This document shows, piece after piece, positions 6,862 to 33,309 of a stretch of 64,000 bases of DNA. Position numbers and translations under genes: made by a program. A model generated the notes under the pieces. It searched no databases. It saw only the letters and a list, made by a program, of their open reading frames with translations, and was not told the origin of the DNA. Source of the DNA: Streptomyces sp. I6 (GTDB lineage: Bacteria; Actinomycetota; Actinomycetes; Streptomycetales; Streptomycetaceae); assembly GCA_003725745.1 (NCBI GenBank), contig RHDP01000001.1:5373501-5437500 (forward strand), in the 5' to 3' direction. Position 1 is the stretch's first letter; every line of letters begins with the position of its first letter.

Positions 6862-6961
6862 CCGTCCGCCGTCCGCCGTCCGCCGTCCGCCGTCTGCCGT
6901 CTGCCGTCTGCCGTCTGCCGTCCGCCTGTCCGCCTGTCCGCCTGTCCGCCTGTCTGCCGGG
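6862..6961. repeat. Degenerate 7-8 bp tandem repeat directly after a stop codon
   Basis: After the TAG at 6861 the sequence runs through about 12 copies of CCGTCCG/CCGTCTG, then four copies of CCGCCTGT. It fills most of the spacer to the next gene and has no coding signal. Confidence 0.9.
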
Positions 6962-7024
6962 CGGTGCACGCGGGACGCGGGACGCGCGGGGCGGTGGCCC
7001 ACCGTCCACGGAAGGAAGCCGCCC

Positions 7025-15873: not shown

Positions 15874-16826
15874 GGCCGGGTCAGGACGGCCGTCCCCGGC
15901 GGGCGTCCCCGGCGCTGGTCACGGCGCTGGTCACGGCGGCCCTGGTCCTCGCCGTGGGCTCCTGCACCGAGCGCCCCACCACGCACCACGGGTCGGGCAC
16001 GGGCCACGAGGTGGTCACCGGCCCCGCCGGGACGCTGCTGCCCGGCGGCCACGGAGAGCACTCTCACGACCGCCTGCGGCAGGTACCCGCAGGGGACGCC
16101 CCGACCGTCACCCTGACCGTCCGGCCCGACGCGGAGGACGGCTGGAACGTACGGCTCGCCGTCGGGCGCTTCCGCTTCACCCCGGACAGCGTGGGCGGCG
16201 CGGCCGTCCTGGGCACCGGCCACGCCCATCTGCTGCTGGACGGCGCGAAGATCGCCCGGGTGTACGGCGGCAGCTACCACCTGCCCGCCGAGCGGATACC
16301 CGCCGGCGGCGGGACGCTCACCGCCCGGCTCGTCGCCGACGACCACACCGCCTGGGCCGTGGAGGGGCGCCCCGTCGAGGACACCGTGCGGCTGTCCGGA
16401 GTGTCGCCCGGTGCGCCGCCCGGCGCGACCCCGGAGCCCGGGGACCAGCCGACGGACCAGTCCGGTCAGCCTCCGTCCGGTCAGCCCCAGTCCGGGCAGT
16501 CCCAGTCCGGGCAGTCCCCGTCCGGGCAGTCCCCTGCCGGTGGGCCAGACCAGACCGGCCAGGCCGCCCAGACCGTCGCGATCGCCATCGCAGAAGGCAG
16601 GATCAGTCCGGCACCCGGGCGCATCGACGTGCGGAAGGGCCGGCCCGTCGACCTCCGGGTCACCAGCGACACCGACGACGAACTGCACGTCCACGGAGTG
16701 GACCGCTCGGCCGAACTCAAGGCCGGCCGCACCACCACCCTCCGTGTCGTCATGGACCGGGCGGGGCTGTTCGAGGTCGAGACGCACCGCTCGGGCCTGG
16801 TGCTGGCACAGCTCGCGGTCCGGTGA
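15870..16826 (+). CDS. His-rich lipoprotein with cupredoxin-like C-terminal domain
   Basis: A 318-residue lipoprotein. The signal peptide ends in a lipobox (LAVGSC near residue 31). The mature N-terminus is His-rich (TTHHGSGTGHE; HGEHSHD). A first domain has GTGHAHLLLDGAKIARVYGG, a pattern of small beta domains that hold metals or partners. A Pro/Ser/Gly/Gln linker (SGQSQSGQSPSGQ) is followed by a cupredoxin-like sandwich with VRKGRPVDLRVTSDTDDELH and a late VETHRSG strand, resembling the N-terminal domain of EfeO-type proteins. The blue-copper Cys is absent, so classical electron transfer is unlikely. Its start and stop overlap both neighbours, so the three genes are co-translated. Confidence 0.8.
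   Translation: MRPGQDGRPRRASPALVTALVTAALVLAVGSCTERPTTHHGSGTGHEVVTGPAGTLLPGGHGEHSHDRLRQVPAGDAPTVTLTVRPDAEDGWNVRLAVGRFRFTPDSVGGAAVLGTGHAHLLLDGAKIARVYGGSYHLPAERIPAGGGTLTARLVADDHTAWAVEGRPVEDTVRLSGVSPGAPPGATPEPGDQPTDQSGQPPSGQPQSGQSQSGQSPSGQSPAGGPDQTGQAAQTVAIAIAEGRISPAPGRIDVRKGRPVDLRVTSDTDDELHVHGVDRSAELKAGRTTTLRVVMDRAGLFEVETHRSGLVLAQLAVR
16456..16545. repeat. 15-bp tandem repeat encoding the SGQ-rich linker
   Basis: Units close to CAGTCCGGGCAGTCC repeat about five times in frame, giving SGQPP, SGQPQ, SGQSQ, SGQSP and SGQSP. Copy-number changes would alter only linker length. Confidence 0.9.
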
Positions 16827-18124
16827 ACGGCGTGCACGTTCTCGCCCACGGAGTCGGCTCCCGGCACGATCTGCCCGTCTCGGCCTTCCACGCCTATGCG
16901 GGTGCGTTCGCCGCGCTGCTGTTCTCCTTCCTGGCACTGGGCCTGCTCTGGCCGGAGTCACGCTTCCGCGGAGACCGCTCCGGGCGACCGCTGCCCGCCG
17001 TTCTCCAGCGTGCGGCGGACTCCCGCGCCCTGCGCGGCGGGCTCCGGGCACTGGGACTCGTCGCCGCCACCGCCGTACTCGTCCACCTGGTGGCCGGTCC
17101 GGACGACCCGGCACGCAACCCCGCGCCCGGCGCGGTCTATGTGCTGCTCTGGGTGGGGCTGATACCGGCCTCGATGCTCCTCGGCCCCGTGTGGCGGCTG
17201 CTCAACCCGCTGCGCACGGTGCACCTGCTCGGCTGCCGCGCTCTGCGCAGATCCCCCGACGCCGGACGGCGGGAGCCGGCCCTGCGGCTCGGCCACTGGC
17301 CGGCGGCGGCCGGGCTGCTGGCCTTCACCTGGCTCGAACTCGCCTCCCCCGCCCCCGCTTCCCGCACCGCCCTGCTGCTCTTCCTGCTCTCCTACGCGGC
17401 CGTGCAACTGGCGGGCGCGGCCGTCTGCGGCCGTGTCTGGTTCGACCGGTGCGACGCGTTCGAGGTCTACTCCGCACTGCTCGCCCGGCTCGCGCCCCTG
17501 GGACGTGGAGCCGACGGGCGGCTCGTCCTCCGCAACCCGCTGCACGGACTCGACGGCACCCCCCAGATCCCGGGCCTGGTGGCCACGGTGTGCGTGCTGC
17601 TCGGCAGTACGGCCTACGACGGCTTCTCGGACACCCCGTGGTGGATCAACACGCTTCAGACGTCACCGCTCGGCCGCACCGCGACCGCGACCGCCGGACT
17701 CGCTGGCACCGTGGGCGGCATCGCCCTCCTCTACGTCGTGTGCGCGGGCAGCGCCCGGCTGATCGCCGGGCCGGTGCCGCGGCCGCTCGGCGCCTTCGCC
17801 CACTCCCTGCTGCCGATCGCCGCCGGCTATCTGGTCGCCCACTACTTCTCCCTGCTGACGACCGAGGGACCCCGGACGCTGGTGCTCGCCCTCGACGGCG
17901 CCGGGTCCGGCGGGCTGCCCGCGCCGGACCCGCCGCTCGGGCCGGCGGGCCTCGCCACCCTCCAGGTGGCGGCCGTGGTCACCGGCCACGTCCTCGGTGT
18001 CGTCGCGGCGCACGACCGGTCCGTACGCCTGTTCCCGCCGGCTCGGGCGGTCGCGGGAGGGATTCCCCTGCTGGTGCTCATGATCGGCTACACCCTCTGC
18101 GGCATCGGACTGCTCGTCGCATGA
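16823..18124 (+). CDS. Polytopic membrane protein of the beta-helix operon
   Basis: A 433-residue integral membrane protein with about ten hydrophobic segments (for example FAALLFSFLALGLLW, YVLLWVGLIPASMLLGPVW, LVLMIGYTLCGIGLLVA). Charged loops contain VWFDRCDAFEVYSALLARLA and LHGLDGTPQIPGLVA. Conserved-looking His residues occur at HLVAGPDDP and HYFSLL. I recognise no transporter family. The start is the GTG at 16823, overlapping the lipoprotein stop (GTGA). I infer a membrane partner for the secreted beta-helix and His-rich lipoprotein, possibly in metal or cofactor handling; the operon structure is the only support. Confidence 0.75.
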   Translation: MNGVHVLAHGVGSRHDLPVSAFHAYAGAFAALLFSFLALGLLWPESRFRGDRSGRPLPAVLQRAADSRALRGGLRALGLVAATAVLVHLVAGPDDPARNPAPGAVYVLLWVGLIPASMLLGPVWRLLNPLRTVHLLGCRALRRSPDAGRREPALRLGHWPAAAGLLAFTWLELASPAPASRTALLLFLLSYAAVQLAGAAVCGRVWFDRCDAFEVYSALLARLAPLGRGADGRLVLRNPLHGLDGTPQIPGLVATVCVLLGSTAYDGFSDTPWWINTLQTSPLGRTATATAGLAGTVGGIALLYVVCAGSARLIAGPVPRPLGAFAHSLLPIAAGYLVAHYFSLLTTEGPRTLVLALDGAGSGGLPAPDPPLGPAGLATLQVAAVVTGHVLGVVAAHDRSVRLFPPARAVAGGIPLLVLMIGYTLCGIGLLVA

Positions 18125-18136
18125 CGCCGCCCGCGC

Positions 18137-18186
18137 CGCCTCCCTCGTCGTGTGCCTCCCTCGTCGTGTGCGCCCCTCGTCGTGTG
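18137..18186. repeat. 16-bp tandem repeat in the convergent spacer
   Basis: Three copies of GCCTCCCTCGTCGTGT-like units follow the stop at 18124. The spacer separates convergent genes, and no clear bidirectional terminator is seen. Confidence 0.85.
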
Positions 18187-18299
18187 CTCCGCCTCCGCCT
18201 CCGGGAGGGGTCGGTCCGTCGTTGGACGGCGACATGCCCGGGACCGCTACGCCCCGCCGTGGCCTCGTGCGGGGCACTCGGGAAGGACCCGTGGATCCG

Positions 18300-19979
18300 T
18301 CACCGTGCCTCGCGCAGCCAGAGAAGGTATGCGGCAGTCAGTGCGACGGCACGGTCCCCGTCATGCGACAGCTCCCCGAGAGCACGGGTAGCCGTGGCCC
18401 CCGGGATGTCCGCAAGCGCCTGGGTCAACCGTCCACGCGCGGGCGCTTCGGTGATGTCGTGGGCGAGGCGGTCGGCGAGCGCGGTCGCGATCCGATCGGC
18501 CGTCGCGGTGTCGGTCGCCAGCGCGCCGAGTGCGTCGGCCGCGTCGGTGTCGTTCCTTCCCACCACGATCATGTCGATGAGCATCGGGACCGCATCGGCC
18601 GCCCCACGCGCCCCGAGCGCCAGAGCCGCGATCGCGCGGACCGCGAACTCGGGGTCCGCGAGGGCGCCACGGAGCCGCGCGGCAGCCTCATCACCGGGCA
18701 TCTCCGCGAGGGACCGAACGGCACGTTCCCGCACGGCGGCCGCCGGTGAGCCGAGACCCTCCGCGAGCAGGGCCGTGCCGCCGTCGCCCGCACGCGCCAG
18801 TGCCCACCGGAGGGCTCCGGCGACGTTCGGCTCCGTCTCACCGAGTACGGCCTCGACCAAGGCCTCCACCGGCACCGGAACCTCGTCGCCCGAGGAGAGG
18901 GCCGCGCGCTGCCGCGCGTCGGCGCTCTTCGACCCGAGTGCCTGGAGGAGCGCGACGACCCGGAGGACGTCCTCCCAGCCGGCGGGTTCCGCGGAACGGA
19001 TCCGGCGGAGCCGCCTGAGCAGCTCGGTCTCGGCCGCGATGCGGTCGCTTGTCTGGCGGATGAGGTCGTCGACGAGCGCCGAGGCCGTGAAGCCCGGATC
19101 ATCGAGCGCGCGCCCGATCTCCCGGAGCGACAGCCCCAGCGACCGCAGGCTCTCGATGTGGAAGATCCGCCGGATGTCCTCCGCGGAGTACTCCCGGTAG
19201 CCGGAGCCCGTGCGACCCGAAGGCCGCACCAGACCGAGCGATTCGTAATGCCTGAGCATGCGGGCGCTGACCCCGGACCGTCTCGACACCTCACCGATCA
19301 GCACGGTTCTCATCGTCCGTCCTCGGGCCCCGGCGAGAGCCACGACGCGCTTGGCCTCCTCGACCGCCGACTCGAATCCGGCGTCCGGGTCGCGCAGCAG
19401 CCGTTGCGTGGCGAGCGCGTGTGCGCGCACGTGCGGGCCGGACGCCGTCGCCGCAGCACACAGCGCGGGCACGATCACGTCCCCGAGCGCGACCAGCGCC
19501 TGGCTGAGACTCAGCCGCGTCTCCTGCCCACCGCGCCCCAGCTGCTTCGCCAGCATCGTGGCCAAGGCGGACTTCTCGCCATCGGGCACGAGCACGACCG
19601 TGGCCCGCCAGGCACTCCGGGCCACCTCGTCGTCGGCGTCGGACAGCAGCGCCCAGGTGATCGCCGGCCATGCCCGCCGGTCCCCGATCTTGGACAGCGT
19701 GTGCAGCGCCTGGCTCCGTGCCCGCGCACGCTCCGAGCGGACTTCGCGCAGCAGCTCGGGAAGCGTCAGGGCCACCGGGTGGCGGGTGAGCGCCCAGGTC
19801 AGCATGTCCCGGACGAAGAACTCCGGCTCGCTCGCGCACCGCTCGACGAGCTTGCCCACGAAGCGCGGGTCAGGGGCCGTACCGGCCGCCAGCGCAGCCC
19901 GCAGCCGCACCGACGACCGTCCGTCCTCCAGTCCCCGGAGCGCTCGCATCGCATCCGTGTCCCGCCTCGTCGCGGTCAT
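18300..19979 (-). CDS. MerR-family regulator embedded between two HEAT-repeat domains
   Basis: A 559-residue protein. Residues of about 10-215 are helical HEAT-like repeats (TPRFVGKLVERCASEP-type and SQALHTLSKIGDRRAWPAIT). Residues of about 223-330 are a MerR domain (IGEVSRRSGVSARMLRHYES, then SAEDIRRIFHIESLRSLGLS) with a dimerising coiled coil. The rest is a second HEAT array (ERAVRSLAEMPGDEAAARLR; VRAIAALALGARGAADAVPM). The start at 19979 follows GAGGAGGTG. A second possible start (ATG at 19313 after GAGGACGGACG) would give a shorter MerR-HEAT protein from the same frame. No Cys cluster typical of metal sensors is seen, so the HEAT domains probably sense a protein or ligand. A MerR-type operator lies upstream. 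Confidence 0.85.
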   Translation of the reverse strand: MTATRRDTDAMRALRGLEDGRSSVRLRAALAAGTAPDPRFVGKLVERCASEPEFFVRDMLTWALTRHPVALTLPELLREVRSERARARSQALHTLSKIGDRRAWPAITWALLSDADDEVARSAWRATVVLVPDGEKSALATMLAKQLGRGGQETRLSLSQALVALGDVIVPALCAAATASGPHVRAHALATQRLLRDPDAGFESAVEEAKRVVALAGARGRTMRTVLIGEVSRRSGVSARMLRHYESLGLVRPSGRTGSGYREYSAEDIRRIFHIESLRSLGLSLREIGRALDDPGFTASALVDDLIRQTSDRIAAETELLRRLRRIRSAEPAGWEDVLRVVALLQALGSKSADARQRAALSSGDEVPVPVEALVEAVLGETEPNVAGALRWALARAGDGGTALLAEGLGSPAAAVRERAVRSLAEMPGDEAAARLRGALADPEFAVRAIAALALGARGAADAVPMLIDMIVVGRNDTDAADALGALATDTATADRIATALADRLAHDITEAPARGRLTQALADIPGATATRALGELSHDGDRAVALTAAYLLWLREAR

Positions 19980-20008
19980 CGGGACCACCTCCTCGGGAAG
20001 CAGTGAAA

Positions 20009-20033
20009 ACCCTGTCACCGTGTCAAGGTCAAA
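20009..20033 (-). promoter_or_regulatory. MerR-type operator/promoter of the HEAT-MerR gene
   Basis: The 21 bp at 20009-20029 form an imperfect dyad (ACCCTGTCAC-C-GTGTCAAGGT on the plus strand, 8 of 10 arm pairs). Read on the minus strand, TTGACC (20033-20028) and TTCACT are separated by 19 bp, the over-long spacing typical of MerR-activated promoters. It sits 30-50 bp upstream of the gene, so autoregulation is inferred. Confidence 0.65.
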
Positions 20034-20527
20034 CGGGGGGGCAGCCGCCCGTGTCGCGAGTCGCCGAGAGGATCCGGTTCCCCGGGGGTCCTCCGTCCGG
20101 TCCGGTTGCCCGGTCCTCCGCCAGGCCGCACAGCGGACTGCCCGCTTCCGGGGCGTGCGCCGTGCATGAGGAGGGCTGGACGCACCGTTTGCAGTGGCCG
20201 GCCGCACGCGCGGAGGGCGGCGACCCCGGACCCGGCACGGTGGGCGTGGCCGACCCCACCGGGCAGCCGCCGGTGTGAACGCGGCCGCTCGCGCCCGCGG
20301 TCGCGGCCACCCGACGTGTGGCCGGGACGGAGACACTGCCGGTGCACTCGCGCCCGCGTCTGCACTCACGCCCGCCCGCAGCGTCACCACCGGCAGCGCG
20401 TACCGCCGCCTGCGCGCACCGCGGACGGTGAGCGTCGTCACGGAACCCTGACGCGGGCCGGGCATAGCGTGAGACGCAGCAGAGGACACCGGGGCGTCCC
20501 GGTCGGCGCACGACGAGGAGCATGCTC
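20034..20527. other. 490-bp GC-rich spacer, no gene seen
   Basis: This stretch holds the divergent upstream regions of the HEAT-MerR and DUF427 genes. Frames crossing it on either strand lack domain-like sequence and ribosome sites. The only functional signals I see are the MerR operator at its left end and GAGGAG at 20515-20520. Confidence 0.5.
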
Positions 20528-20830
20528 ATGCTGCGTGCCATCTGGAACGGCACCGTGATCGCGGAAGCGGAGCGCACGGTGGTCGTCGAAGGCAACCACT
20601 ACTTCCCGCCCCAGGCGTTGCGCCGCGAGTACTTCACCGAGAGCCGCTCCCGTTCGCTGTGCTTCTGGAAGGGGCTCGCCCGGTACTACACCGTCACCGT
20701 CGACGGGCGGACCATGCCGGACGCGGCCTGGTACTACCCGCGCCCCAGCCCGCTCGCCCGCCGGATCAAAGGCCATGTCGCGTTCGGATGGGGCGTGCGG
20801 GTCGAGGGTGAGCCGGGACCGGCGGCGTAA
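20528..20830 (+). CDS. DUF427 domain protein
   Basis: A 100-residue single-domain DUF427 protein. AIWNGTVIAEAERTVVVEGN at the N-terminus and RSRSLCFWKGLARYYTVTVDG in the middle are characteristic. AAWYYPRPSPLARRIKGHVAF closes the fold. The family has a small beta-barrel structure and is common in actinobacteria; its biochemical role is not established. I chose the ATG at 20528 because GAGGAG is 7 nt upstream; the ATG at 20522 is too close to it. Confidence 0.9.
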   Translation: MLRAIWNGTVIAEAERTVVVEGNHYFPPQALRREYFTESRSRSLCFWKGLARYYTVTVDGRTMPDAAWYYPRPSPLARRIKGHVAFGWGVRVEGEPGPAA

Positions 20831-20980
20831 GCGGCTGCTCGCGACGCCCGCGGCGTAGCCTGCCGCGACCCGCCCCCGCCGGCTCCCTTCCCGCGGTGAC
20901 CTGCTGTCCGCGGCGTCGCCTCCCGCGCCCCCTCCCTCCCGCGCCCCCTCCCTGCCGCGACCCGCTGTCCGCGGCGTTGC

Positions 20981-21060
20981 CCACCGGGGCCCACCGGGGC
21001 CCACCGGGGCCCACCGGGGCCCACCGGGGCCCGCCGGGGTCCGCCGGGGTCCGCCGGGGT
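20981..21060. repeat. Exact 10-bp tandem repeat array
   Basis: Five copies of CCACCGGGGC (20981-21030) are followed in register by three copies of CCGCCGGGGT (21031-21060). It is preceded by two related GCGCCCCCTCCCT units. The 350-bp spacer (20831-21177) has no gene. Confidence 0.97.
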
Positions 21061-21177: not shown

Positions 21178-21668
21178 ATGGTGTTGCGGCTCGTGCTGGG
21201 CGCGCTGTTCCTCGCGATGGCGGCCGGGCAGCTCGCGTCCCTTCGGCAGATGCCCGGGATCCTGGCCGGGTACGGGCTGGTCGCCGGATCTGCGGCGGCC
21301 GTGCTCGCCGTGGCACTGATCGTGGGCGAGCTGGTGTGCGGGGTGTGGTTCCTGGCCCGCCCGCGCTCCCGAGCGCTCGCGCCGGTGCTGGTGTTCACCG
21401 GTGTCGCCGCGGTGTGGGCTCTGCTGGCCGTCCAGGCGTTCGCGCGCGGGCTCACGGTGGCGAACTGCGGCTGCTTCGGCGTCTATCTCGTCCAGCGCCT
21501 GAACTGGTTCGTCCTCGTCCAGGACGCGCTGCTGCTGCTCTACGCCGGTGTGCTGCTCCGCACGGCCCTCGGGCCCCGCCCGCGCCCGCCGCACGACCCG
21601 CGGCGGCCTCCGGGGGCGGGGCCGGATCCGGGGCCGGGACGCCGGACCGTCAAGACCCTTCCGAGTGA
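21178..21668 (+). CDS. MauE/DoxX-like redox membrane protein
   Basis: A membrane protein with four predicted helices (VLRLVLGALFLAMAAGQ; VLAVALIVGELVCGVWFLA; VLVFTGVAAVWALLAVQAFA; FVLVQDALLLLYAGVLL) and the ANCGCFG motif with two Cys, the hallmark of MauE-type proteins that move reducing power or aid disulfide handling. The start is the ATG at 21178. In the sequence as given the frame has no stop before the radical SAM ATG at 21679, so it reads through in frame. The neighbouring frame stops at TGA 21666-21668, just before the next ribosome site, so one missing base in the G-rich tail would give a separate protein of about 163 residues. I favour this because of the frame breaks nearby. The Pro-rich last 30 residues are unreliable. 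Confidence 0.75.
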
Positions 21669-21678
21669 GGAGTTGGCC

Positions 21679-23252
21679 ATGCCCGAGCCGTCCCGTGCCC
21701 CTGCGCCCCGGCGAAAGGCGGACCGCGACGAGGTGTTCGTGGAGTTCACCAAGTCGATCTGCCCCGTGTGCAAGACGCCCGTCGACGCACAGGTCAACAT
21801 CCGCGAGAGCAAGGTCTATCTGCGCAAGCGATGCCGCGACCACGGCGAGTTCGAGGCCCTGGTCTACGGTGATGCGGAGGAGTACCTGACCTCGGCGCGG
21901 TACAATAAGCCCGGCACGATCCCGCTGGCCTTCCAGACCGAGGTCAGGGACGGCTGCCCGCTGGACTGCGGGCTGTGCCCGGACCACAAGCAGCACGCCT
22001 GCCTCGGCATCATCGAGGTCAACACCGGCTGCAACCTGGACTGTCCGATCTGCTTCGCCGACTCCGGGCACCACGGCGACGGCTACTCCATCACCCGCGA
22101 GCAGTGCGAGCGGATGCTCGACGTCTTCGTGGAGTCGGAGGGCGAGGCGGAGGTGGTGATGTTCTCCGGCGGAGAACCCACCATCCACAAGCACATCCTC
22201 GACTTCATCGACCTCGCCCAGGCACGCCCCATCGCGTGCGTCAACCTCAACACCAACGGCATCCGCCTCGCCACCGACCGGGACTTCGCCGCCCGGCTCG
22301 GCGAACGCAACCGGACCCCGGGTCGGTCGGTGAACGTCTACCTCCAGTTCGACGGCTTCGACGAGCGCACCCATCGGGAGATCCGGGGCCGCGACCTGCG
22401 CTCGTTCAAGCGGCGGGCCCTGGACAACTGCGCCGAGGCCGGCCTCACCGTCACCCTCGTCGCCGCCGTCGAGCGCGGCCTGAACGAGCACGAACTCGGG
22501 GCCGTCATCGAGTACGGCATCGACCACCCCGCCGTGCGCTCCGTGGCCTTCCAGCCGGTCACCCACTCCGGCCGGCACGTGGAGTTCGACCCGCTGAACC
22601 GGCTCACCAACCCCGACGTCATCCGGCTGATCACCGAGCAGCGTCCGGACTGGTTCCGCAAGGGCGACTTCTTCCCCGTCCCCTGCTGCTTCCCCACCTG
22701 CCGCTCCATCACCTACCTGCTGGTCGACGGCGAACCGGGCGACCGGACCGTCGTGCCGATCCCGAGGCTGCTCGACGTGGAGGACCACCTCGACTACGTC
22801 GCCAACCGCGTCATGCCGGACACCGGCGTCCGCGAGGCGCTGGAGAAGCTGTGGTCGGCCTCCGCGTTCATGGGCACGGCGACGACCGAGGAGAAACTGC
22901 GCGCCACCGCCGAGGCACTGGACTGCGCGGACAGCTGCGGCATCGACCTGCCTCAGGCGGTGAAGCAGCTCGACGACAAGGCGTTCATGATCGTCGTGCA
23001 GGACTTCCAGGACCCCTACACCCTCAACGTCAAGCAGCTGATGAAGTGCTGCGTCGAGGAGATCACCCCCGACGGTCGCCTCATCCCCTTCTGCGCCTAC
23101 AACTCCGTCGGCTACCGCGAGCAGGTGCGCGCCCAGATGTCCGGGGTGCCCGTCGCCCAGGTCGTCCCCAACGCCCTGCCGCTCGCCCCCGGCTCACCAC
23201 GACCCCGTACGGTTCGAAGACCGTCCGCACCGTCGCCCGGGAGCAGCCGTGA
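21679..23252 (+). CDS. Radical SAM protein of the tetraether-synthase (Tes/MJ0619) type, one frame break
   Basis: About 524 residues. An N-terminal Cys module (SICPVCKTPVD near 29; RKRCRDHGEFE near 50; GCPLDCGLCPDHKQHACL near 92) precedes the radical SAM motif GCNLDCPICFADSG near 117-130 (CxxxCxxC). MFSGGEPTIHKH near 160 is the SAM-binding GGE motif. More Cys lie at PVPCCFPTCRS, CADSCG and MKCCVEE, with IPFCAYNS near the end. This layout matches the archaeal tetraether-lipid synthase family and its uncharacterised bacterial relatives. GAGGAG is 6 nt upstream of the ATG. Restoring one C in 23186-23190 yields the ending LTTTPYGSKTVRTVAREQP and a stop that overlaps the next gene (GTGA). Alternatives are other radical alkylation reactions; the substrate is unknown. 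Confidence 0.82.
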
Positions 23253-24039
23253 ACAGCGACGAGATCAAGAGCTGCTGCGCCGACGCCTACTCCAGGGACG
23301 TCGTCGCCCTGCTGCTCGGCGACTCCTACCACCCCGGCGGCACCGCCCTGACCCGCCGCCTCGCCGACGCGCTGGGGCTCGCCCGCGACGGCCGCGTGCT
23401 GGATGTGGCCTCCGGCCGCGGCACCTCCGCGCTGCTGCTCGCGGGCGTCTACGGCGTGCGCGTGGACGGCGTCGACTACTCCGCCGCCAACACCGCCCTC
23501 GCCCAGGGGGCGGCCCAGGCGGCCGGATTCGCCGAGCGGACCGGGTTCGTCACCGGCGACGCCGAGCACCTGCCCTACGACGACGGCGTGTTCGACGCGG
23601 TGCTGTGCGAGTGCGCCCTGTGCACCTTCCCCGACAAGGCCCGGGCGGCCGCCGAGTTCGCCCGGGTACTGCGTCCCGGCGGCCGGGTCGGCATCACCGA
23701 CGTCACCGCCGCCCCGGACCGGCTCCCGCCCGAACTCAGGAGCGTCGGCGCCCGGATCGCCTGCGTCGCCGACGCCCGCCCGCTGACCGCGTACGCGGCC
23801 GTCCTGGCCGGCGCCGGACTGCGCACCGTCACCACCGAGCGCCACGACGCCGCCATGCTCCGGATGATCGACCAGATCGAGGCCCGGCTGAACCTGCTGC
23901 GCATCACCTCGCCCGCCAGGCTCGCGGACGCGGGCGTCGACCCGGGCGCGGCCCCCGCCGTCCTGGGGCGGCGCGCGCCGCCGTGGCCCGCGGCGCCCTC
24001 GGCTACGCCCTGCTCACCGCGGTGAAGCCGGTGTCGTGA
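23249..24039 (+). CDS. ArsM-like class I methyltransferase, one frame break near the end
   Basis: About 263 residues. The N-terminal EIKSCCADAYSRD and LLGDSYHPGG segments resemble arsenite methyltransferase-like proteins. Motif I is VLDVASGRGTSALLLA near residue 50, followed by VDGVDYSAANTALA, then CECALCTFPDKARAA (two more Cys) and LRPGGRVGITDVTAAPDRLP. It begins at a GTG overlapping the radical SAM stop, so the two proteins are co-made and may act on one substrate. Adding one G to 23965-23968 restores ARAAVARGALGYALLTAVKP and a stop at 24037-24039. Without it the frame ends earlier in a basic tail. Whether it methylates arsenic, a thiol or a lipid-derived group is not shown. Confidence 0.8.
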
Positions 24040-24141
24040 AGCCGGTGTCGTGAAGCCGGTGTCGTGGAGCCGGTTCCGTCCGCCGTGGCCCGCGGCGCCC
24101 TCGGCTACGCCTGCTCACCGCCGTGGAGCCGGTGTCGTGAA
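24022..24141. repeat. 14-bp tandem repeat plus partial duplication of the methyltransferase 3' end
   Basis: GTGAAGCCGGTGTC is repeated three times (24022-24063), with a fourth variant after it. The stretch CGCCGTGGCCCGCGGCGCCC and what follows at the gene end recurs at about 24081-24141 with a few changes, so the last 60 bp of the gene were copied into the spacer. Confidence 0.92.
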
Positions 24142-24262
24142 GCAGACCCCGGCGCCGATCTACCACCGGGTACGTAAGCGGCCTCACATACCCGCCGCGG
24201 GTGCCGCCCCTAGCGTGGATCGCCAGAGACACACACCACTCCCACATGAGGGGGCGCTCACC

Positions 24263-24751
24263 ATGGCAGCCACCATGCACGTATCCCCGAGCACGGCCGT
24301 CATCCCGGTACACGCGGTCTGGGGAGCCGCGGCCGGTCTGGTCGGCGGGGTCGGGATGGGCATCTGGATGTCGGTGTCGAGGCCGATGGCGGACACCGCG
24401 ATGATCACCATGGTCGCCGGGCTCCTCGGCTCGACCAACGCCTTCGTCGGCTGGATCGTGCACCTGGCCATCGCGCTCTTCGCCGGTGGGGTGTTCGGCG
24501 TACTGGTCGGGCAGTACGCCGAGCGCCTTGCCGCCGGTGCCGCTCTCGGTCTGGCCTACGGCGTGCTGTGGTGGTTCGTCGGCGCGCTGTGGATCATGCC
24601 CGCCAACATGGGCATGCCGGTCTTCGAGTGGAACGCCGTCACCGCGTCCAGCCTCGGCGCCCATCTGGTGTTCGGGCTGCTCGCCGGTCTGACCTACGCC
24701 GCGATCGCCCAGACCGCGAACCACCGGGACTCGGGCCCGGCCGTCCGATGA
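24263..24751 (+). CDS. Small four-helix membrane protein
   Basis: A 162-residue protein with four hydrophobic segments (VWGAAAGLVGGVGMGIWMSV; ITMVAGLLGSTNAFVGWIVH; LALFAGGVFGVLVG-like stretch; HLVFGLLAGLTYAAIAQ) and a short soluble N-terminus. The internal pattern of Gly, Trp and His (GWIVHLAIALF; GALWIMPANMGMPVFEWN) resembles small cofactor- or metal-associated membrane proteins, but I do not recognise the family. The ATG at 24263 has GAGGGGG 8 nt upstream. It lies between the methyltransferase and the CRP-type regulator, so it may belong to the same redox unit. Confidence 0.75.
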   Translation: MAATMHVSPSTAVIPVHAVWGAAAGLVGGVGMGIWMSVSRPMADTAMITMVAGLLGSTNAFVGWIVHLAIALFAGGVFGVLVGQYAERLAAGAALGLAYGVLWWFVGALWIMPANMGMPVFEWNAVTASSLGAHLVFGLLAGLTYAAIAQTANHRDSGPAVR

Positions 24752-24939
24752 CCCCAGCACCGCCCGCGCCGGCCCCCCGCCCCGATGGCCCAGGGCCGGG
24801 CGCCGCGCCGCGTCGGTCACGCGACGACGGCATCGCGGTGTCCTACTGTCTGGCCGACAGCGCCGACGCGCTGGCCGGCCCGGCGTGGGGCGCCGCGCCC
24901 CCGCCCTGGGCCCCGGGACGACGGGAGGAGACGCACACG

Positions 24940-25661
24940 ATGACCCACGCCTACACGGACAGCGACGGGGGCGGGCAGGGGACGTGGTGCATGGCCGAGG
25001 TGGACATCTTCTGCGACCTGTCGGAGAAGGAGATGGCCGCCATCGCGGAAGCGGCGCCGATGAAGACGTACGGCGCCGGTGAGATCCTCCACTCGCCGGA
25101 CCAGCCCAGCGAGGTGCTGTTCATCCTCAAGAAGGGCCGGGTGCGGGTCTTCCGGGTCTCCGCCGACGGACGGGCGCTGACCACGGCGATCATCACCCCG
25201 GGCACGATCTTCGGGGAGATGGTCCTGCTCGGGCAGCACATGTACGACAACTACGCCGAGGCCCTGGACGACGTCATCGTCTGCGTGATGAGCCGCGCCG
25301 ACGTGAACCGGCTGCTGCTGTCCGACGCCCGTATCGCGGCCCGTATCACCGCGATCCTGGGACGCCGGCTGGCCGAGCTGGAGCAGCGCCTGTCGGACAG
25401 CGTCTTCAAGACCGTCGCCCAGCGCATCGCCACCACCCTGGGCACCCTCACCGCCGCCCAGCCCCCGCCGGCCCGCTGCGTCCCGTCGGGCGCCACCCGC
25501 AGATCGCGCTCACCCACGAGCAGATCGCCGCCCTCGCGGGGACCTCCCGCGAGACCTGCACCAAGGTGCTCCACGACTACGCGGACCAGGGGATGATCCG
25601 CCTCGCCCGCGGGCGTATCACCGTCCTCGACGCCGCCCGGCTCAGGGACGCCGGGGGCTGA
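24940..25661 (+). CDS. CRP/FNR-family transcription regulator, one frame break
   Basis: About 240 residues. A cyclic-nucleotide-type sensor domain (IFCDLSEKEMAAIAE; GEILHSPDQPSEVLFILKKG; GTIFGEMVLLGQ) covers residues of about 15-140. A long dimer helix follows, then a winged helix (LTHEQIAALAGTSRETCTKV) and the wing GMIRLARGRITVLD. The visible Cys (WCMAEVDIFCDL) could bind a cluster or cofactor as in FNR/ArnR types. GGGAGGAG lies 9 nt upstream of the ATG. One C restored at 25472-25474 joins the sensor to the DNA-binding domain and gives the stop at 25659. It sits in the middle of a redox-gene block and probably controls it. Confidence 0.85.
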
Positions 25662-25834
25662 CGCCCGCCGGCCGCCGCCGTGTCGAGCAGCCGCCGTGTC
25701 GAGCAGCCGCTGTGCCGGGCCGTCACCGTTGGCGGGCCGTCACCGAACCGTAAGGACCCTACTCCGCACCCGCCGGCCCGGTGGGTTCTACAGTCGCACC
25801 GGAACCGAGCCGAGTACCCCGACAGGAGTCCGCC

Positions 25835-26416
25835 ATGCGCGCCCGCACCCTCCTCCCCGCCGCCCTGGCCGCCACGCTGCTCACGCTCGCCGGATGCGGC
25901 GCAGAAGGCGGCTCCGGCCCGGGGGGCGACACCGGGGCGGTCCCTTCGGCGGCGCCGTCACCGGCCCCGCCCGGCGCGTCGGACGGCGGTGACACCGGCG
26001 GCACCGAGGCGCCCGAGGCCCTGAGGTTCACCGGCACCACCGTGGACGGCGAGCCGTTCGACGCGAAGACGCTCGCGGGCAAGCCGGCGGTGCTGTGGTT
26101 CTGGGCCCCCTGGTGCCCCAAGTGCAAGGCGCAGGCGGCCGAGACGGCCAGGGTCGCCGCCGAGTACACGGGCAAGGCCAACGTGGTCGGTGTGGCGGGC
26201 CTGGACGGGGCCGCCGCCATGAAGGACTTCGTCGCGGAGACGAAGACGGGCGGCTTCCCCCATCTGTCCGACGAGGCCGGTGACGTGTGGAAGCGGTTCG
26301 ACGTCACCGAGCAGAGCCGCTACGTCATCCTCGACGAGAACGGCAAGACCGTCTACGAAGGCGTCCTGCCCGGCGGCGAGGGGCTGGCCGAGAAGGTCGC
26401 CGGACTCACCGGCTGA
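25835..26416 (+). CDS. TlpA-like thioredoxin-fold lipoprotein
   Basis: A 193-residue protein. A lipobox (LTLAGC near residues 17-22) ends the signal peptide. An Ala/Pro/Gly-rich linker of 40 residues precedes a thioredoxin fold with the active site WFWAPWCPKCKAQAAE (CPKC) near residue 90. YVILDENGKTVYEG is the late beta strand. It would act outside the membrane as a thiol-disulfide reductant and obtain electrons from the CcdA-like protein encoded 6 bp downstream. GGAG is upstream of the ATG at 25835. Substrates could be cytochrome c apoproteins or other secreted thiol proteins. Confidence 0.9.
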   Translation: MRARTLLPAALAATLLTLAGCGAEGGSGPGGDTGAVPSAAPSPAPPGASDGGDTGGTEAPEALRFTGTTVDGEPFDAKTLAGKPAVLWFWAPWCPKCKAQAAETARVAAEYTGKANVVGVAGLDGAAAMKDFVAETKTGGFPHLSDEAGDVWKRFDVTEQSRYVILDENGKTVYEGVLPGGEGLAEKVAGLTG

Positions 26417-26422
26417 ACCCCG

Positions 26423-27316
26423 ATGTCCGATCTGCCCCTCGCCCTCGCGCTCACCGCGGGCATGCTCGCCGCCGTCAACCCGTGCGGCTTCGCCCTGCTC
26501 CCCGCCTATCTGTCCCTCCTCGTCCTCGGCGACGACGCCCCCAGCCGCACCGTGGCCGTCGGCCGTGCCCTGATCGCGACCGCTGCCATGACCGCCGGAT
26601 TCGCGGCACTCTTCGGGATCTTCGGCCTGGCCGTGCAGCCCGTAGCGGGCCAGGTGCAGCGGCATCTGCCGTGGTTCACCATCGTCTTCGGGCTCCTCAT
26701 GGCGGGCGCCGGGGCCTGGCTGCTCGCGGGCCGCCGGCTGCCCTCCCCGGCACCGAAGATCCGCCGGGCGCCCGGTCTCACCCGCTCCGTCCCCTCCATG
26801 GCGCTGTTCGGGATGGCGTACGCGGCAGCCTCCCTGGGCTGCACCATCGCCCCGTTCCTCGCGATCGTGGTGTCCGCCGTCCGCAGCGGGTCCACCGGCG
26901 AGGGCGTCGCCCTCTTCGTCGCCTACGCCGCCGGTATGGGCCTGATCGTCGGAGCCGCCTCCCTCACCGTCGCCCTCACCCGCACCACCGCCGTCACGCG
27001 GCTGCGCCGTCTCGGCGCCGCCGCCCCCCGCCTCGGTGGCGCGCTGCTCCTGCTCGTGGGCGCGTACGTGGCGTACTACGGCTGGTACGAGATCCGGGTG
27101 CAGGGCGACCCCGCCACCCGGGATCCGGTCATCGACGCCGCGGGCGCCCTCCAGCGCACCATCGCCGATGCCCTGGACGCCGTGGGTCCAGCGGGGGTCG
27201 CCGCCCTGTTCGCGGCCCTGCTGGTCACGGCGGTGGCGCTGGCCCGACTGCGGCGGGCCCGGCGTCCGCGCGCCCGGGAAGCCGTCCCCCCGCCCGCAGC
27301 GGACCGCTCCCACTGA
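26423..27316 (+). CDS. CcdA/DsbD-type transmembrane thiol electron carrier
   Basis: A 297-residue protein with seven or so helices. The first helix has AAVNPCGFALLPAYLSLL and a later one SLGCTIAPFLAIVV: the two Cys that shuttle electrons in CcdA proteins. A C-terminal pair of extra helices with a soluble loop extends it beyond the usual 240 residues. It passes reductant from cytoplasmic thioredoxin to the TlpA-like lipoprotein encoded just before it (6-bp gap). No cytochrome c assembly genes are visible nearby, so the pair may serve the MauE/radical SAM block instead. Confidence 0.9.
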   Translation: MSDLPLALALTAGMLAAVNPCGFALLPAYLSLLVLGDDAPSRTVAVGRALIATAAMTAGFAALFGIFGLAVQPVAGQVQRHLPWFTIVFGLLMAGAGAWLLAGRRLPSPAPKIRRAPGLTRSVPSMALFGMAYAAASLGCTIAPFLAIVVSAVRSGSTGEGVALFVAYAAGMGLIVGAASLTVALTRTTAVTRLRRLGAAAPRLGGALLLLVGAYVAYYGWYEIRVQGDPATRDPVIDAAGALQRTIADALDAVGPAGVAALFAALLVTAVALARLRRARRPRAREAVPPPAADRSH

Positions 27317-28726: not shown

Positions 28727-29472
28727 ATGACCACTGGGACCGCGTTGCACTGGATCGACGGCACCTGGGTCGGTCCGGGAAGCCGGGACGGCGTTGAAGC
28801 CCGTCCGGCGCCGGGGGAGCAGAATGCGGACGGGCGCGAGATGGCGGCACGGGCGCTCGCGGCGGCCCGGCGGGCCTTCGGCGAGACGCGCTGGAAGGAC
28901 GACCGGCATCTGCGCGCCAGGACCCTGCACGAGATGGCCGACCTGTTCGCCGCGCGCCGGGGCAGATCACCGACGCACTGGCCCAGGTGGACGGCAGCAG
29001 GCGGCGCGCGCGCTTCGAGGCGGAGACGGTGCCGTCGAGGCTGCGGTACTTCGCCTCGCTCGTACGCACCGAGCACGGCCGCGCCCTCGAAGCCGCCCCG
29101 GGGCAGGGCTCCCTCGTCCTGCGGCGCCCCCGCGGGGTGGCGGGCATCGTCGTGCCGCGCCGGTCCCCGGTCGTCCTGCTCGTCTGCTCCCTGGCCCCGG
29201 CCCTGGCAGCCGGTACGACCAGTGTGGTGCGGATGCCGGGGCAGACGGCCCGCGTCAACGCCCTGGTCTTCGGGATCTTCTCCGAGACCGAGTCGCTGCC
29301 GCGCGGAGTCGTGAACGGTTTCACGGAGGAGGACGGCGCGGGTGCCCGGTATCTGGTTGCCGCCGCCGATGTGCCGTGCGCCCTCGACGGGGCCGCCCGG
29401 GAAGCGTCGGCGATGGACGACTTCGTCGAGTGCGAGCGAGTGACGATCACCCCGGGGACCATCCAGCGATAG
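28727..29472 (+). pseudogene. Truncated aldehyde dehydrogenase (N-terminal half only)
   Basis: About 248 residues align in style with the first half of an NAD(P) aldehyde dehydrogenase: LHWIDGTWVGPGSRDGVEAR (N-terminal strand), ARTLHEMADLFAARR, FASLVRTEHGRALE, GVAGIVVPRRSPVVLLVCSL and PALAAGTTSVVRMPGQTA (cofactor domain). One G restored at 28959-28962 joins the two frames. Even then the protein ends after about half the usual 480 residues with an unrelated tail, and the catalytic Cys and Glu are missing. The NAD-binding K of the P-W-N-x-P region is also not conserved. I treat it as a real truncation. It lies beside a molybdenum aldehyde oxidoreductase operon on the opposite strand. Confidence 0.65.
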
Positions 29473-29747
29473 CGGGCCCGTCGTGGCGTTCCGCGGCCCG
29501 CGCTCCCGTCTGCCCGCGCCCCTTCCTGCCCGCACTCGCCCAGGCCCGGGCCCATGCCCGCCCGCACTCCCGGACGCACGGGCCGGGCCGGTCCCGCACC
29601 CGGCCCGGCCCCTGTACCCATGCCCATGCCCATGCCCGCGCCCGCCCCGTGCCTGTCGGCCCGCCCGCCCCCGTACGCCCGCCACAGGCCCCCGGCTGTC
29701 GGCGCCGGCTGTCGGTGCCTTCCGGTGACGCGCGGAACGACCCGAGT
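29473..29747. repeat. Low-complexity GCCC/CCCATG repeats in a convergent spacer
   Basis: The stretch includes CCCATGCCCATGCCCATGCC (about 29617-29640) and runs of GGCCCGG and CGCCCGC. It separates the dehydrogenase remnant from the convergent oxidoreductase operon. No gene is seen. Confidence 0.75.
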
Positions 29748-30732
29748 TCAGTTTCCTTCGCAGAGGTCGAGGAGTGTGGCGACGAGCGTGTCGCAAGCCA
29801 GCGGGACCTTGTAGGCGTTCCCCGGCACGGTGCGTGCCGCCGCCAGCTCCGCGTGCGCCGCCGTGGCGAAGGACTCCGCCGTCCCGGGTGCTCCGCGCAG
29901 GGCCGTCTCCGCCCTGGTCGCGCGCCACGGTTTGGGGGCGACCCCGCCGAACGCGACACGCACATCGCGCACGGTGCCGCCCTCCAGGTCGAGTGCCGCG
30001 GCGACCGAGACCAGTGCGAAGGAGAACGAGGCCCGGTCCCGCACCTTGCGGTAGCGAGAGCGGGCCGCCGTCGGCAGCGGCGGCAGCTGGACCGCCGTGA
30101 TGAGCTCCCCGCGCTCCAGCCCCGTGTCCCGCTCCGGCGCGTCCCGGGAAGCCGGTGCAGCCGGGTCAGGGGTACCCGGCGGCGGCCCGAGGGCCCCACC
30201 GTCATGACGACGGCGTCCACGGCGCACAACGCGACCGCCACGTCGGAGGGGTGCACCGCCACACAGTGCTCCGAGGCCCCCAGGACCGCGTTGTGACCGG
30301 TGAAGCCGCTCAGGGCCGAACAGCCCGAACCGGGTTCCCGCTTGTTGCAGGGGGTGTCCGGGTCCTGGAAGTACACGCAGCGGGTGCGCTGCATGAGATT
30401 CCCGCCCAAGGTGGCGGCGTTGCGCAACTGGGCCGACCCCCCGACACCAGCGCCTGGGAGACCACGGGGTAGCGCTCGCGCACCACCGGATGAGCAGCCA
30501 GGTCGGCGTTGCGGACCGTCGCCCCGATGCGCAACCCCCCGTCGGGAATCTCCTCGACGGTGTCGAGGGGCAGTCCGGTGACGTCCACCAGCACACGGGG
30601 CCGGGCGATCCCGAGCCTCAGGTGCTCGACGAGGTTCGTCCCGCCGCCCAGGAACACCGCGCCCGGGCGGGTCGCGACGAGTGCGACGGCTTCCTCGGCC
30701 GTCGCGGGGCGTTCATAGGCGAAGGGCCGCAT
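29748..30732 (-). CDS. Molybdenum hydroxylase FAD subunit with extra 4-Cys cluster site, two frame breaks
   Basis: About 328 residues of a CO-dehydrogenase/xanthine-dehydrogenase FAD subunit. The N-terminus MRPFAYERPATAEEAVALVA and FLGGGTNLVEHLRLG hold the FAD site. The middle carries NAATLGGNLMQRTRCVYFQD, then PCNKREPGSGC and ASEHCVAVHPSD: four Cys as in PaoB/YagS, where they bind an additional [4Fe-4S] cluster. The end (RYRKVRDRASFSFALVSVAA) is the usual C-terminal domain. Breaks lie at 30437-30442 and at 30143-30145, one missing C each on the plus strand. The start at 30732 follows GGGAGG. It is the third gene of the operon, 255 bp behind the molybdenum subunit across a repeat-rich spacer. 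Confidence 0.85.
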
Positions 30733-30987
30733 CACCCGCCTCCCCGGTCGCGGACCGCGCCCGGGACGCTCCGTTCCGGCGCAGTCCGGGAGCGGCCGGG
30801 CGGGGAACCAGGGCCCCGCAGCCCTCACGGTGCGGATGGCCCTCACCGTGGGGACGGCCTCCGCAGTGCGCATGGCACTCCCAGCACGCGCAGCACGCCC
30901 AGCACACACAGCACATACGGCGCACACCGCCTCCACGCCCCGCACGGCGCACAGGGTCTTCAGGGCGCGCACCGTGGCCCCGCCCGG
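30733..30987. other. Repeat-rich spacer inside the oxidoreductase operon
   Basis: CAGCACGC and CACACAGCACA words repeat between 30880 and 30920, and GTGCGGATGGCC/GTGGGGACGGCC words at 30829-30865. No gene is seen. Confidence 0.55.
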
Positions 30988-33309
30988 TCACGGCTGCTCC
31001 GGCGACCCCGGCCGCGGGAGCGCTCCCGACGGCGGGGGAGTGCCACACGGTGGGGGAGTGCCACAAGCCGGGGGCGCCCCCGGCGGCCCCGGCCGCACCG
31101 AGGGCCCCATCACCTCCACGAGCCGCTGAGGAGTCAGCGGCAGCTCGCGGAAGCGGTGCCCCGTGGCGTGGTGCACCGCGTTGGCGATCGCGGCCGCCGT
31201 GCCGACGATGCCGATCTCGCCGGCCCCCTTGGCTCCCATGGGGCTCGTGTGGAAGTCCTCCTCCTCGACGCAGACGGCGTCGACGCGGGGCACGTCCGCG
31301 TATGTCGCGACGCGATAGGCGGCGAGGTCCCGGGTGAGGAAGTGACCGTGAGCCGGGTCCAGGACGCCTTCCTCGCAGAGGGCCATGGAGACGCCCATGA
31401 CCATGCCGCCGACCAGCTGCGAACGCACCGTCGCCGGGTTGATGACCCGGCCCACGGCGAAGACGCCGAGGAGGCGCGGCACCCGCACCTCCCTGGTGGC
31501 CCTGTCCACGGTGACCTCCGCGAACTGGGCTCCGAAGGCGTGCTGCGAGCACGCGCGCGGCGGGGCGAGTTCGTCGGAGGTGTCCCAGGACACCTCGACG
31601 CCGCCGGGCGGCACCTCGCCGCCGCGCCGCCCGATCTCGGCGCGCAGCGCCTCGCACGCCCGCACCACCGCCGTGCCCCAGGAGGTCGTTCCGCTGGAGC
31701 GCCCGGCCCAGCTCGCCGACGGGTAGGCGCTGTCGCCGAGTTCCGCGGTGACGCGGTCCGCCGGTACCCGGAGGGCGTCGGCGGCGATCTGCGCCAGCAC
31801 CGTCCGGGCTCCCGTACCGACGTCCGCGGCCGCGATACGCACCACATAGCGGCCGTGCGGGTCGGCGTGCACGGTCGCCCGCGAGGGGAACCGGTACTGC
31901 GGAAACGTCGATGCGGCGACGCCCAGGCCCACCAGCCGGTGCCGGTCGCCGCGCCGCGCCCGCAGCCGGTCCCGCTCGGCCCACCCGAAGCGCTCCGCGC
32001 CCAGGCGCAGGCAGGCGGCCAGGTTCCGGGAGCTGAAGGGCCGTCCGCTGTGGGGGTCCACGGGAGTGTCATTGCGCAGCCGCAGCTCGACGGGATCGAT
32101 GGCGCACGCCTCGGCGAGCTCGTCCATCGCCGACTCCAGCGCGAACATCCCCGGGCACTCGCCGGGGCCCGCAGCCACGTGGGGAGGGGACGTGCAGGCG
32201 CGCACGCCGGTGACTGGTCATGCGGTGGGGCGCCGCGTACATGGTGCGGGTGGGTGCGGCCGTGCACTCGGAGAAGTCCCTGATCAGCGAGGTCTGCTCG
32301 AACGCCGCATGGGACACGGCCACCAGGCGGCCGTCCGTCCCGGCCCCGAGGCGGATCCGCTGGATGGTCGGCGTCCGGTATCCCACGACGGCGCTGAGCT
32401 GCTCCCGGCCGAGGGCGGTGACGACCGGCCGCTGCACGACACGGGCCGCCAGAGCGGCCAGGACCACCTGGGCGCGCGGCGCCGCCTTCGAGCCGAAGCC
32501 CGCGCCGATGTGGTGGGCGAGGACCCGCACTCGGTCGGGCCGGATCCCGAAGAGGCGGGCCAGGACGTCACGCGTTCCCGACGGCCCCTGCGTGGTGTCG
32601 TGGACGGTCAGGAACCCTCCTTGCCAGTACGCCAGCGACGCGTGCGGCTCCAGCACATGGTGGTGGTACGGGGGCGTGCGGTACACCGCGTCCACGCGTA
32701 CGGCGGAGCGCGGCAGCGCGGCCTCCGGGTCGCCGTGCACGCAGTCGGCGGGGAACCACGGGCCGTGCCCGGGGGCGGCTGAAGCGAGAGGCCGTCGGTG
32801 GCCAGCTGTACCTCGTGCGGGCGGGCGGCGTACTCGACGTCCACGCGGAGCGCGGCCTCCCGGGCGAGAAGCGGGGACTCGGCGACGACGGCCGCGACGA
32901 ACTGCCCCCGGTAGGCGATGCCGGGAGACTGGAACAGGGCGAGTTCCCCGTCGCCCGCTCTGCGCAGGCGCGGGCAGTTGGCGAAGTAGATCACGGCCGT
33001 CACACCGGGCAGGGCGAGGGCCCGCTGGGGACGGACCGCCCGCACCCGTCCATGGGCCACCGCCGCCGGGACCACCGCGACGTAAGCGGCCCTCGGCATC
33101 CTCACGTCGCCGGCGTAGCGCGCCCGGCCGGTGACCTTCTCCCCGGCCTCCCGCCGGGGGAGGGAGGCGCCGGTGAAGCGCTGAGCCGGGGCCGCCGCCA
33201 CCGGGGCGGCGGTGCTCGCGGGCGGGCCGGGCGGCCCCCGCCGGTCGTCCGGCGGCGTCCCGCCGCCGGACGGACCGGGTACGGGTCCGCTCCGCCGCGG
33301 GCGCGTCAT
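30988..33309 (-). CDS. Molybdopterin-binding subunit of aldehyde-oxidoreductase type, three frame breaks
   Basis: About 774 residues, PaoC/xanthine-dehydrogenase large-subunit family. Recognisable parts are VTGRARYAGDVRMPRAAYVA (N-terminal barrel), DAVYRTPPYHHHVLEPHASL (substrate funnel), HHIGAGFGSK (cofactor loop), GECPGMFALESAMDELA, AADVGTGARTVLAQIAADAL (Mo-cofactor QxxG-like segment) and SPMGAKGAGEIGIVG with the catalytic Glu. It hydroxylates aldehydes or aromatic N-heterocycles using water. The ATG overlaps the stop of the iron-sulfur subunit. Single-base losses at 32768-32775, 32181-32184 and 32162-32167 put the protein in three frames; three restored bases give 775 codons. The C-terminal tail repeats GTPPPCGTPPPSG. 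Confidence 0.85.

Follow-up and report, generated by a model that had tools for sequence, protein, structure and literature searches.

What does a bacterial relative of the archaeal tetraether synthase (Tes) do when its gene is followed by that of an ArsM-like methyltransferase? The question is raised by a 64,000-nucleotide stretch of the Streptomyces sp. I6 genome (contig RHDP01000001.1), here called the window, in which seven genes lie consecutively on the plus strand at 21178–27316. They encode a MauE-type membrane protein, a radical S-adenosylmethionine (SAM) protein, the methyltransferase, a small membrane protein, a CRP/FNR-type regulator, a TlpA-like protein and a CcdA-like protein. The original prediction took all seven for one redox system, with a relay from CcdA through TlpA to MauE feeding the radical SAM/methyltransferase pair. 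The genes, their shared strand and the GTGA junction within the pair are indeed where it placed them. Comparison with related loci shows that conservation extends to the radical SAM/methyltransferase pair and not to all seven genes. We tentatively read this pair as a two-enzyme pathway acting on a soft metalloid, most likely arsenic.

Scanning with one genome for each species returned 263 stretches coding for relatives of this radical SAM protein, and the best 80, including 47 from Streptomyces and some paired from one genome, were taken as loci. The methyltransferase gene is within 2.5 kb of the radical SAM gene in 79 of these after removal of overlapping matches (the overlap count has a methyltransferase match in 80), and this covers all 17 genera or groups, as labeled by hand from the record titles. 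A four-base overlap of the methyltransferase start codon with the radical SAM stop is available in 71/80 loci. The full seven-gene set was found in 12/80 loci, exclusively in Streptomyces, a lower bound as some loci stop at a contig end; seven genes as one fixed system were therefore rejected. The expected co-occurrence in other genomes thus holds for the two coupled genes and, for the set, within Streptomyces alone. Four Streptomyces genomes carry two radical SAM loci each (L024/L088, L042/L053, L031/L057 and L034/L050).

The families of neighboring genes were built from the same 80 loci, so their counts denote homology and not enrichment. Within 8 kb, an SRPBCC/Polyketide_cyc2 (lipid-transport domain) gene is present in 44/80 loci (3 genera), CRP in 43, MauE in 40 (two groups), DUF427 in 36, a homologue of the small membrane protein in 33, a mercuric-reductase-like flavoprotein in 30 (10 groups), a cytidine diphosphate (CDP)-alcohol phosphotransferase in 27 (3 genera), CcdA in 19, and TlpA and DUF3179 in 17 each. 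Small membrane proteins with a Cys-Cys pair come in three types, the first in 18/80 loci, mostly between MauE and the radical SAM gene, the second, MerT-like, in 16/80 and the third in 5/80. The counts for TlpA, CcdA and MauE do not support the proposed relay as a core part. A redox need for the pair is nevertheless plausible, because other redox partners recur more widely, namely the flavoprotein and, in other lineages, thioredoxin-type genes adjoining the pair (some as annotated, some by eye).

The sole control was a presence search in 61 related genomes, mostly from one genus or order. A radical SAM orthologue, defined by at least 79% identity, is found in seven, once as an 82-residue fragment; any match at E 0.001 is listed in 37/61. 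The methyltransferase (E 1e-40) and a CDP-alcohol phosphotransferase (E 1e-20) are each found in six genomes, in both cases all among the seven radical SAM carriers (Fisher p 1.3e-7 each, uncorrected for kinship). The CDP-alcohol phosphotransferase gene is adjacent to the radical SAM gene in two genomes; in three others the distance is ~2.6 to 5.3 kb, and in the sixth ~39 kb. MauE (E 1e-12) is found in 2/61.

A deeper search covered Actinomycetota and plasmid records. Eighteen plasmid records matched, 10 with at least 80% query cover, and 8 of these 10 were fetched. The methyltransferase adjoins the radical SAM gene in six, one from Mycolicibacterium and five from haloarchaea. The haloarchaeal neighborhoods share part of the actinobacterial neighbor set, with a redoxin or peroxiredoxin plus DUF547, an annotated dihydrolipoyl dehydrogenase, and DUF3179 each in 3/5, and the MerT-like second Cys-Cys type in 2/5 (L110 and L111). 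In L111 the radical SAM match is divided between two frames. Within the phylum, the TrsS model was matched at E 1e-30 in 23/396 sampled genomes, none above the cut-off, and 9 of 19 fetched regions have the methyltransferase beside the radical SAM gene; one of the nine is from Streptomyces, and in L140 the methyltransferase comes first. Because the core pair is conserved across 17 genera or groups and in haloarchaea, we regard it as more than chance. A search of viral contigs for the methyltransferase gave 32 pattern matches and no relatives. Two of the outlying loci have further genes at hand: in L140 (1–1477), ferredoxin-like and MoaD-like genes (by eye) and a DVU_1556-type methyltransferase gene precede the near-TrsS radical SAM gene, and on the Mycolicibacterium plasmid L104 (3397–10303) a deiodinase-like protein, a glutaredoxin-domain protein and a second radical SAM protein are encoded beside the pair.

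In the window, the pair and its neighbors are arranged as follows, with Pfam scores in parentheses.

20522–20830, plus strand: DUF427 (NTP_transf_9) protein, a frequent neighbor (PF04248, 104.2 bits)
21178–21624, plus strand: MauE-type redox membrane protein (PF07291, 49.5 bits, cut-off 27; hidden Markov model (HMM) match over 21178–21624)
21679–23252, plus strand: radical SAM protein of the Tes/TrsS-like family (PF04055, 78 bits; PF23545 zinc ribbon, 61 bits)
23249–24039, plus strand: ArsM-like/DVU_1556-like methyltransferase (PF08241, 75.8 bits)
24263–24751, plus strand: small membrane protein, family unknown (nothing above cut-off in Pfam)
24940–25661, plus strand: CRP/FNR-type (cNMP-binding) regulator (PF00027, 70 bits; C-terminal match over 25446–25658)
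25835–26416, plus strand: TlpA/redoxin-like protein with a lipobox-like N-terminus by eye (PF08534, 59.7 bits; PF00578, 59.5 bits)
26423–27316, plus strand: CcdA/DsbD-TM-like membrane protein (PF02683, 21.0 bits, under the cut-off of 27.1)

The Mycolicibacterium homologue of the CcdA-like protein, which adjoins the pair there, is annotated as CcdA. At the GTGA junction, the start codon of the methyltransferase gene shares bases with the stop codon of the radical SAM gene in its shifted frame, and GTGA is likewise found at the junction in S. pacificus, the nearest relative among the named records (97% for the radical SAM protein). In this assembly the frame is shifted toward the 3′ end of three genes, those for the radical SAM protein, the methyltransferase and the CRP regulator, and the MauE gene continues into the radical SAM frame without an intervening stop. 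HMM matches place the C-terminal parts of the methyltransferase and the CRP regulator in their own families and in a different frame from their starts; the radical SAM family match ends at position 501/527, 26 short of the family end, and the last residues apparently lie in another frame. Relatives have intact copies, and the S. pacificus family matches each lie in a single frame. Read errors are a plausible cause, which the completeness score of 87% for this genome (7.05 Mb, two contigs) fits. Short near-repeats gtgaagccggtgtc follow the methyltransferase gene at 24000–24140, where its frame breaks.

The DUF427 gene, frequent in related loci and absent from the original list, lies in a stretch without an aligned counterpart at the same place in S. 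pacificus (L020). Between the same flanks, L020 has nothing that aligns with the stretch at 18138–21051, which contains DUF427 and a HEAT-repeat/MerR-type gene on the minus strand. Upstream, 13831–18124 aligns with the S. pacificus region upstream of MauE and encodes a beta-helix protein, a weak cupredoxin-like protein (below cut-off) and a third protein without a Pfam match. Downstream, molybdenum hydroxylase genes lie on the minus strand at 29447–32205 (MoCoBD_2, 165.1 bits), with frames that look broken by eye. These genes (~29.4–32.2 kb) were rejected as members of the system, their stretch having no aligned counterpart in L020.

The radical SAM protein is related to Tes/MJ0619, as had been proposed. 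It matches the Tes structure PDB 7tol at E 4e-80 and is homologous to M. jannaschii Tes over residues 23–488, and its structure model (mean predicted local distance difference test score (pLDDT) 72.9) has Tes (7tom) as best fold match. Key residues were checked in 17 chosen subfamily rows (13 from a set of 81 actinobacterial radical SAM proteins, and 4 others). The rubredoxin, N-cluster and radical SAM cluster (CX3CX2C) ligands are kept in 17/17 rows and in the window. For the C-terminal cluster, Met439 was the ligand tested individually, and it is replaced by Gln in 17/17 rows and in the window. Tes Tyr459 is replaced by Glu in 16/17 rows, as in the window, and by Gln in one. According to the part of PMC9433317 available, Met439 is a ligand of the C-terminal cluster, and both residues are strictly conserved in archaeal Tes enzymes. 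In the tree, relatives of the window protein form a clade of 17 rows with 100/100 support, and Tes lies outside it. Membership of the Tes clade, as originally expected, thus stands for the wider Tes-like family, but the protein belongs to a clade of its own without Tes and has lost two catalytic residues. It is Tes-like in build but should not be filed as Tes.

In the methyltransferase, two cysteines, Cys122 and Cys172 in the window, are present in 32/32 alignment rows (every fourth of 72, plus 14), haloarchaea included. Both align with cysteines of the ArsM motifs SNC and GCIAGA, in comparison with four Streptomyces ArsM proteins above the curated cut-off (hhalign probability 99.75), and we take these ArsM cysteines to be the positions that bind the substrate arsenite. 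Of 112 rows for adjacent methyltransferases, which in some cases repeat a single gene under two loci, 109 contain both cysteines, and the other 3 show the first cysteine together with a gap. Six rows had been sorted as unlinked: five lack the first cysteine, and the sixth, the haloarchaeal L111 partner, was mis-sorted and has both. The structure model (mean pLDDT 89.2) matches generic methyltransferases, phosphoethanolamine methyltransferases among them. The best NCBIfam family is DVU_1556 (NF045667), at 133.4 bits, below the cut-off of 155; the gene end of the window copy is in another frame. The distant homologues in L140 (210.8 bits) and L145 (158.9 bits) are above the cut-off.

In the organo-metalloid pathway that we favor, the ArsM-type methyltransferase would hold the metalloid through its two conserved cysteines and methylate it from SAM. 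The radical SAM partner would then add another bond, either at the metalloid itself or at the organic portion, in the manner of ArsS and ArsL. Partners that differ between lineages (thioredoxin-like, MauE-like and flavin disulfide-reductase proteins) would keep the substrate and thiols reduced, and in carriers of the CDP-alcohol phosphotransferase the product may go onto a phospholipid. The sequences directly show the pair with its conservation, the cysteines, the replaced Tes residues and the co-occurring genes; which metal is involved, which reaction takes place, in what order, and with which lipid is inferred. Such a pathway fits the ArsM-type thiol ligands, the pairing with a radical SAM enzyme, the neighbors with a reducing role and the linkage to a phospholipid enzyme, and the replaced Tes catalytic residues also count in its favor. 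Among the chemistries first put forward, metalloid methylation has gained most and lipid chemistry has some unexpected support; for thiol natural products nothing was found, and no direct search was made.

Several observations weigh against an organo-metalloid pathway. Arsenite methyltransferase (NF008823) is the second-best family of the methyltransferase at 85 bits, far below its cut-off of 263, and ArsM is not among the 50 best fold matches of the model. The N-terminal Cys-Cys pair is missing in the five haloarchaeal methyltransferases. Arsenic-resistance families are not among the 25 most frequent Pfam families listed for 113 of 198 neighbor genes (18 non-Streptomyces loci, none under 100 codons), and the mercuric reductase model is matched by 7 of the 113 proteins. 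At E 1e-20, the genome from which the window comes lacks such a CDP-alcohol phosphotransferase. The radical SAM gene also occurs with no methyltransferase beside it: in the Persicobacter and M. branderi plasmid records (2/8), in 10/19 fetched phylum regions, two of which are at a contig end, and in L112 and L113. Moreover, the tree puts the haloarchaeal radical SAM proteins and that of L140 with Tes (100/99), on long branches and with unsure joins, and four haloarchaeal rows lack the N-cluster cysteines; because of these two findings, the role of the pair may differ between lineages. As the sequences group, pairing with the methyltransferase occurs in two parts of the radical SAM tree.

The CDP-alcohol phosphotransferase also bears on lipid-tail or head-group chemistry, in which the radical SAM protein would join or alter hydrocarbon chains like Tes, the methyltransferase would act on a lipid or head group, and the CDP-alcohol phosphotransferase would make the donor or acceptor lipid. 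We consider this unlikely, and it keeps real weight because of that enzyme, whose six occurrences among the 61 genomes are all in radical SAM carriers and which is near the pair in 27/80 loci of 3 genera. Its gene overlaps the methyltransferase stop in L065 and directly follows the methyltransferase in the distant L141. A phospholipid methyltransferase-family gene adjoins the pair in L146, the Polyketide_cyc2/lipid-transport gene recurs in 44/80 loci of 3 genera, and phosphoethanolamine methyltransferases are among the fold matches. Full-length homology to Tes and the kept rubredoxin, N-cluster and radical SAM ligands of the window's subfamily point the same way. The replacement of Met439 and Tyr459 does not, and lipid chemistry leaves the metalloid-type cysteines of the partner unexplained. 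A further point against lipid chemistry comes from the available part of PMC8941075, where the function of haloarchaeal Tes homologues is unclear: 20 Halobacteria genomes carry them, and published lipid analyses are without glycerol dialkyl glycerol tetraethers (GDGT). Those homologues may or may not be the genes found here.

Two other roles were also weighed. If the pair makes a cofactor, a pterin or a small thiol, the radical SAM protein would act on a soluble small molecule, and methylation of that molecule by the methyltransferase would follow. The zinc-ribbon Pfam family of the radical SAM protein is named HMPTM, which we take to be the name of a pterin methyltransferase, and the near-TrsS protein of L140 lies beside MoaD-like and ferredoxin-like genes (by eye); however, no cofactor-synthesis family is among the 25 most frequent listed for the 113 neighbors, and we judge this role improbable. 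A role in detoxifying mercury or a similar soft metal, with the pair yielding a volatile or exportable organic form alongside the mercuric-reductase-like flavoprotein and vicinal-cysteine membrane carriers, seems to us distinctly improbable. The flavoprotein is within 8 kb in 30/80 loci of 10 groups, a dihydrolipoyl-dehydrogenase-like flavoprotein is present in 3/5 haloarchaeal records, and the L072 flavoprotein scores 330.5 bits against 454.45 for the MerA model. MerA ends in Cys-Cys, as do four of the flavoprotein copies, one beside the pair (L071) and three more than 8 kb away, whereas most flavoproteins listed do not. The small Cys-Cys membrane proteins (18/80, 16/80 and 5/80 loci, the second type also in haloarchaeal L110 and L111) could serve as carriers, but the MerC and MerT Pfam matches of two types are under the cut-offs (15.3/27.6 and 18.5/32.9 bits) and the third has none. 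The window itself is without these small proteins and has a weak flavoprotein match alone, ~19 kb off. In L071 (Amycolatopsis), the Cys-Cys-ending mercuric-reductase-like gene lies at 5985–7394, directly upstream of the radical SAM gene.

An organo-metalloid pathway could have a wider meaning, which we put forward with considerable doubt: a further, independent route to complex organo-metalloids, in which a radical SAM enzyme built on the Tes/TrsS fold is combined with an ArsM-type methyltransferase. This route would be common to soil actinobacteria and haloarchaea and would feed phospholipid through a dedicated CDP-alcohol phosphotransferase. If true, such a route would explain Tes homologues in organisms without tetraethers. 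In the part of PMC8941075 available, bacterial Tes homologues are interpreted as enzymes that possibly make branched tetraethers spanning the membrane, which serve as palaeoclimate proxies. If the partner is indeed of the ArsM type and the substrate a metalloid, such gene-based inferences would need a check of Met439, Tyr459 and the methyltransferase next door.

How the two proteins compare with known systems can be summarized for four cases. With Tes (MJ0619, the GDGT/macrocyclic archaeol synthase), the radical SAM protein shares homology over residues 23–488, conserved cluster ligands and the best fold match. It differs by Gln for Met439, Glu for Tyr459 and a score of 325.1 bits against the cut-off of 450 in the NCBIfam Tes model (NF045702), which is not reached. 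It also has an added PCCxPxC motif, absent in MJ0619, versions of which occur in other homologues. The likeness of the methyltransferase to ArsM (NF008823) is a profile match over most of its length with the two aligned cysteines. The score (85/263 bits) and the N-terminus differ, and arsenite methylation is a putative activity.

In the ArsM–ArsS and ArsM–ArsL pairs, for arsenosugars and arsinothricin, respectively, a radical SAM enzyme likewise works with an ArsM-type methyltransferase. The homologue in L145 reaches just 44.1/300 bits with the ArsS model TIGR04167, and that model is not among the best 25 of 54 model matches listed for the window radical SAM protein. Radical SAM enzymes make the carbon–arsenic bonds in both syntheses, as stated in the available part of PMC12159101.

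The fourth case is the TrsS radical SAM (seleno)protein with the DVU_1556 family methyltransferase. In the open-licence literature searched, no functional work on either family was found, with DVU_1556 in no paper and TrsS in one table line of the available part of PMC13188914; the neighbor family DUF3179 appears in three papers. Among the matches listed, no title or abstract start names work on the pair described here. TrsS and DVU_1556 are nonetheless the best NCBIfam matches of the two window proteins, both below the cut-offs (337.8/490 bits for TrsS, NF045646, and 133.4/155 bits for DVU_1556), and the near-TrsS protein of L140 scores 470/490 bits. The subgroup described here offers a culturable system in which to test what the TrsS and DVU_1556 families do.

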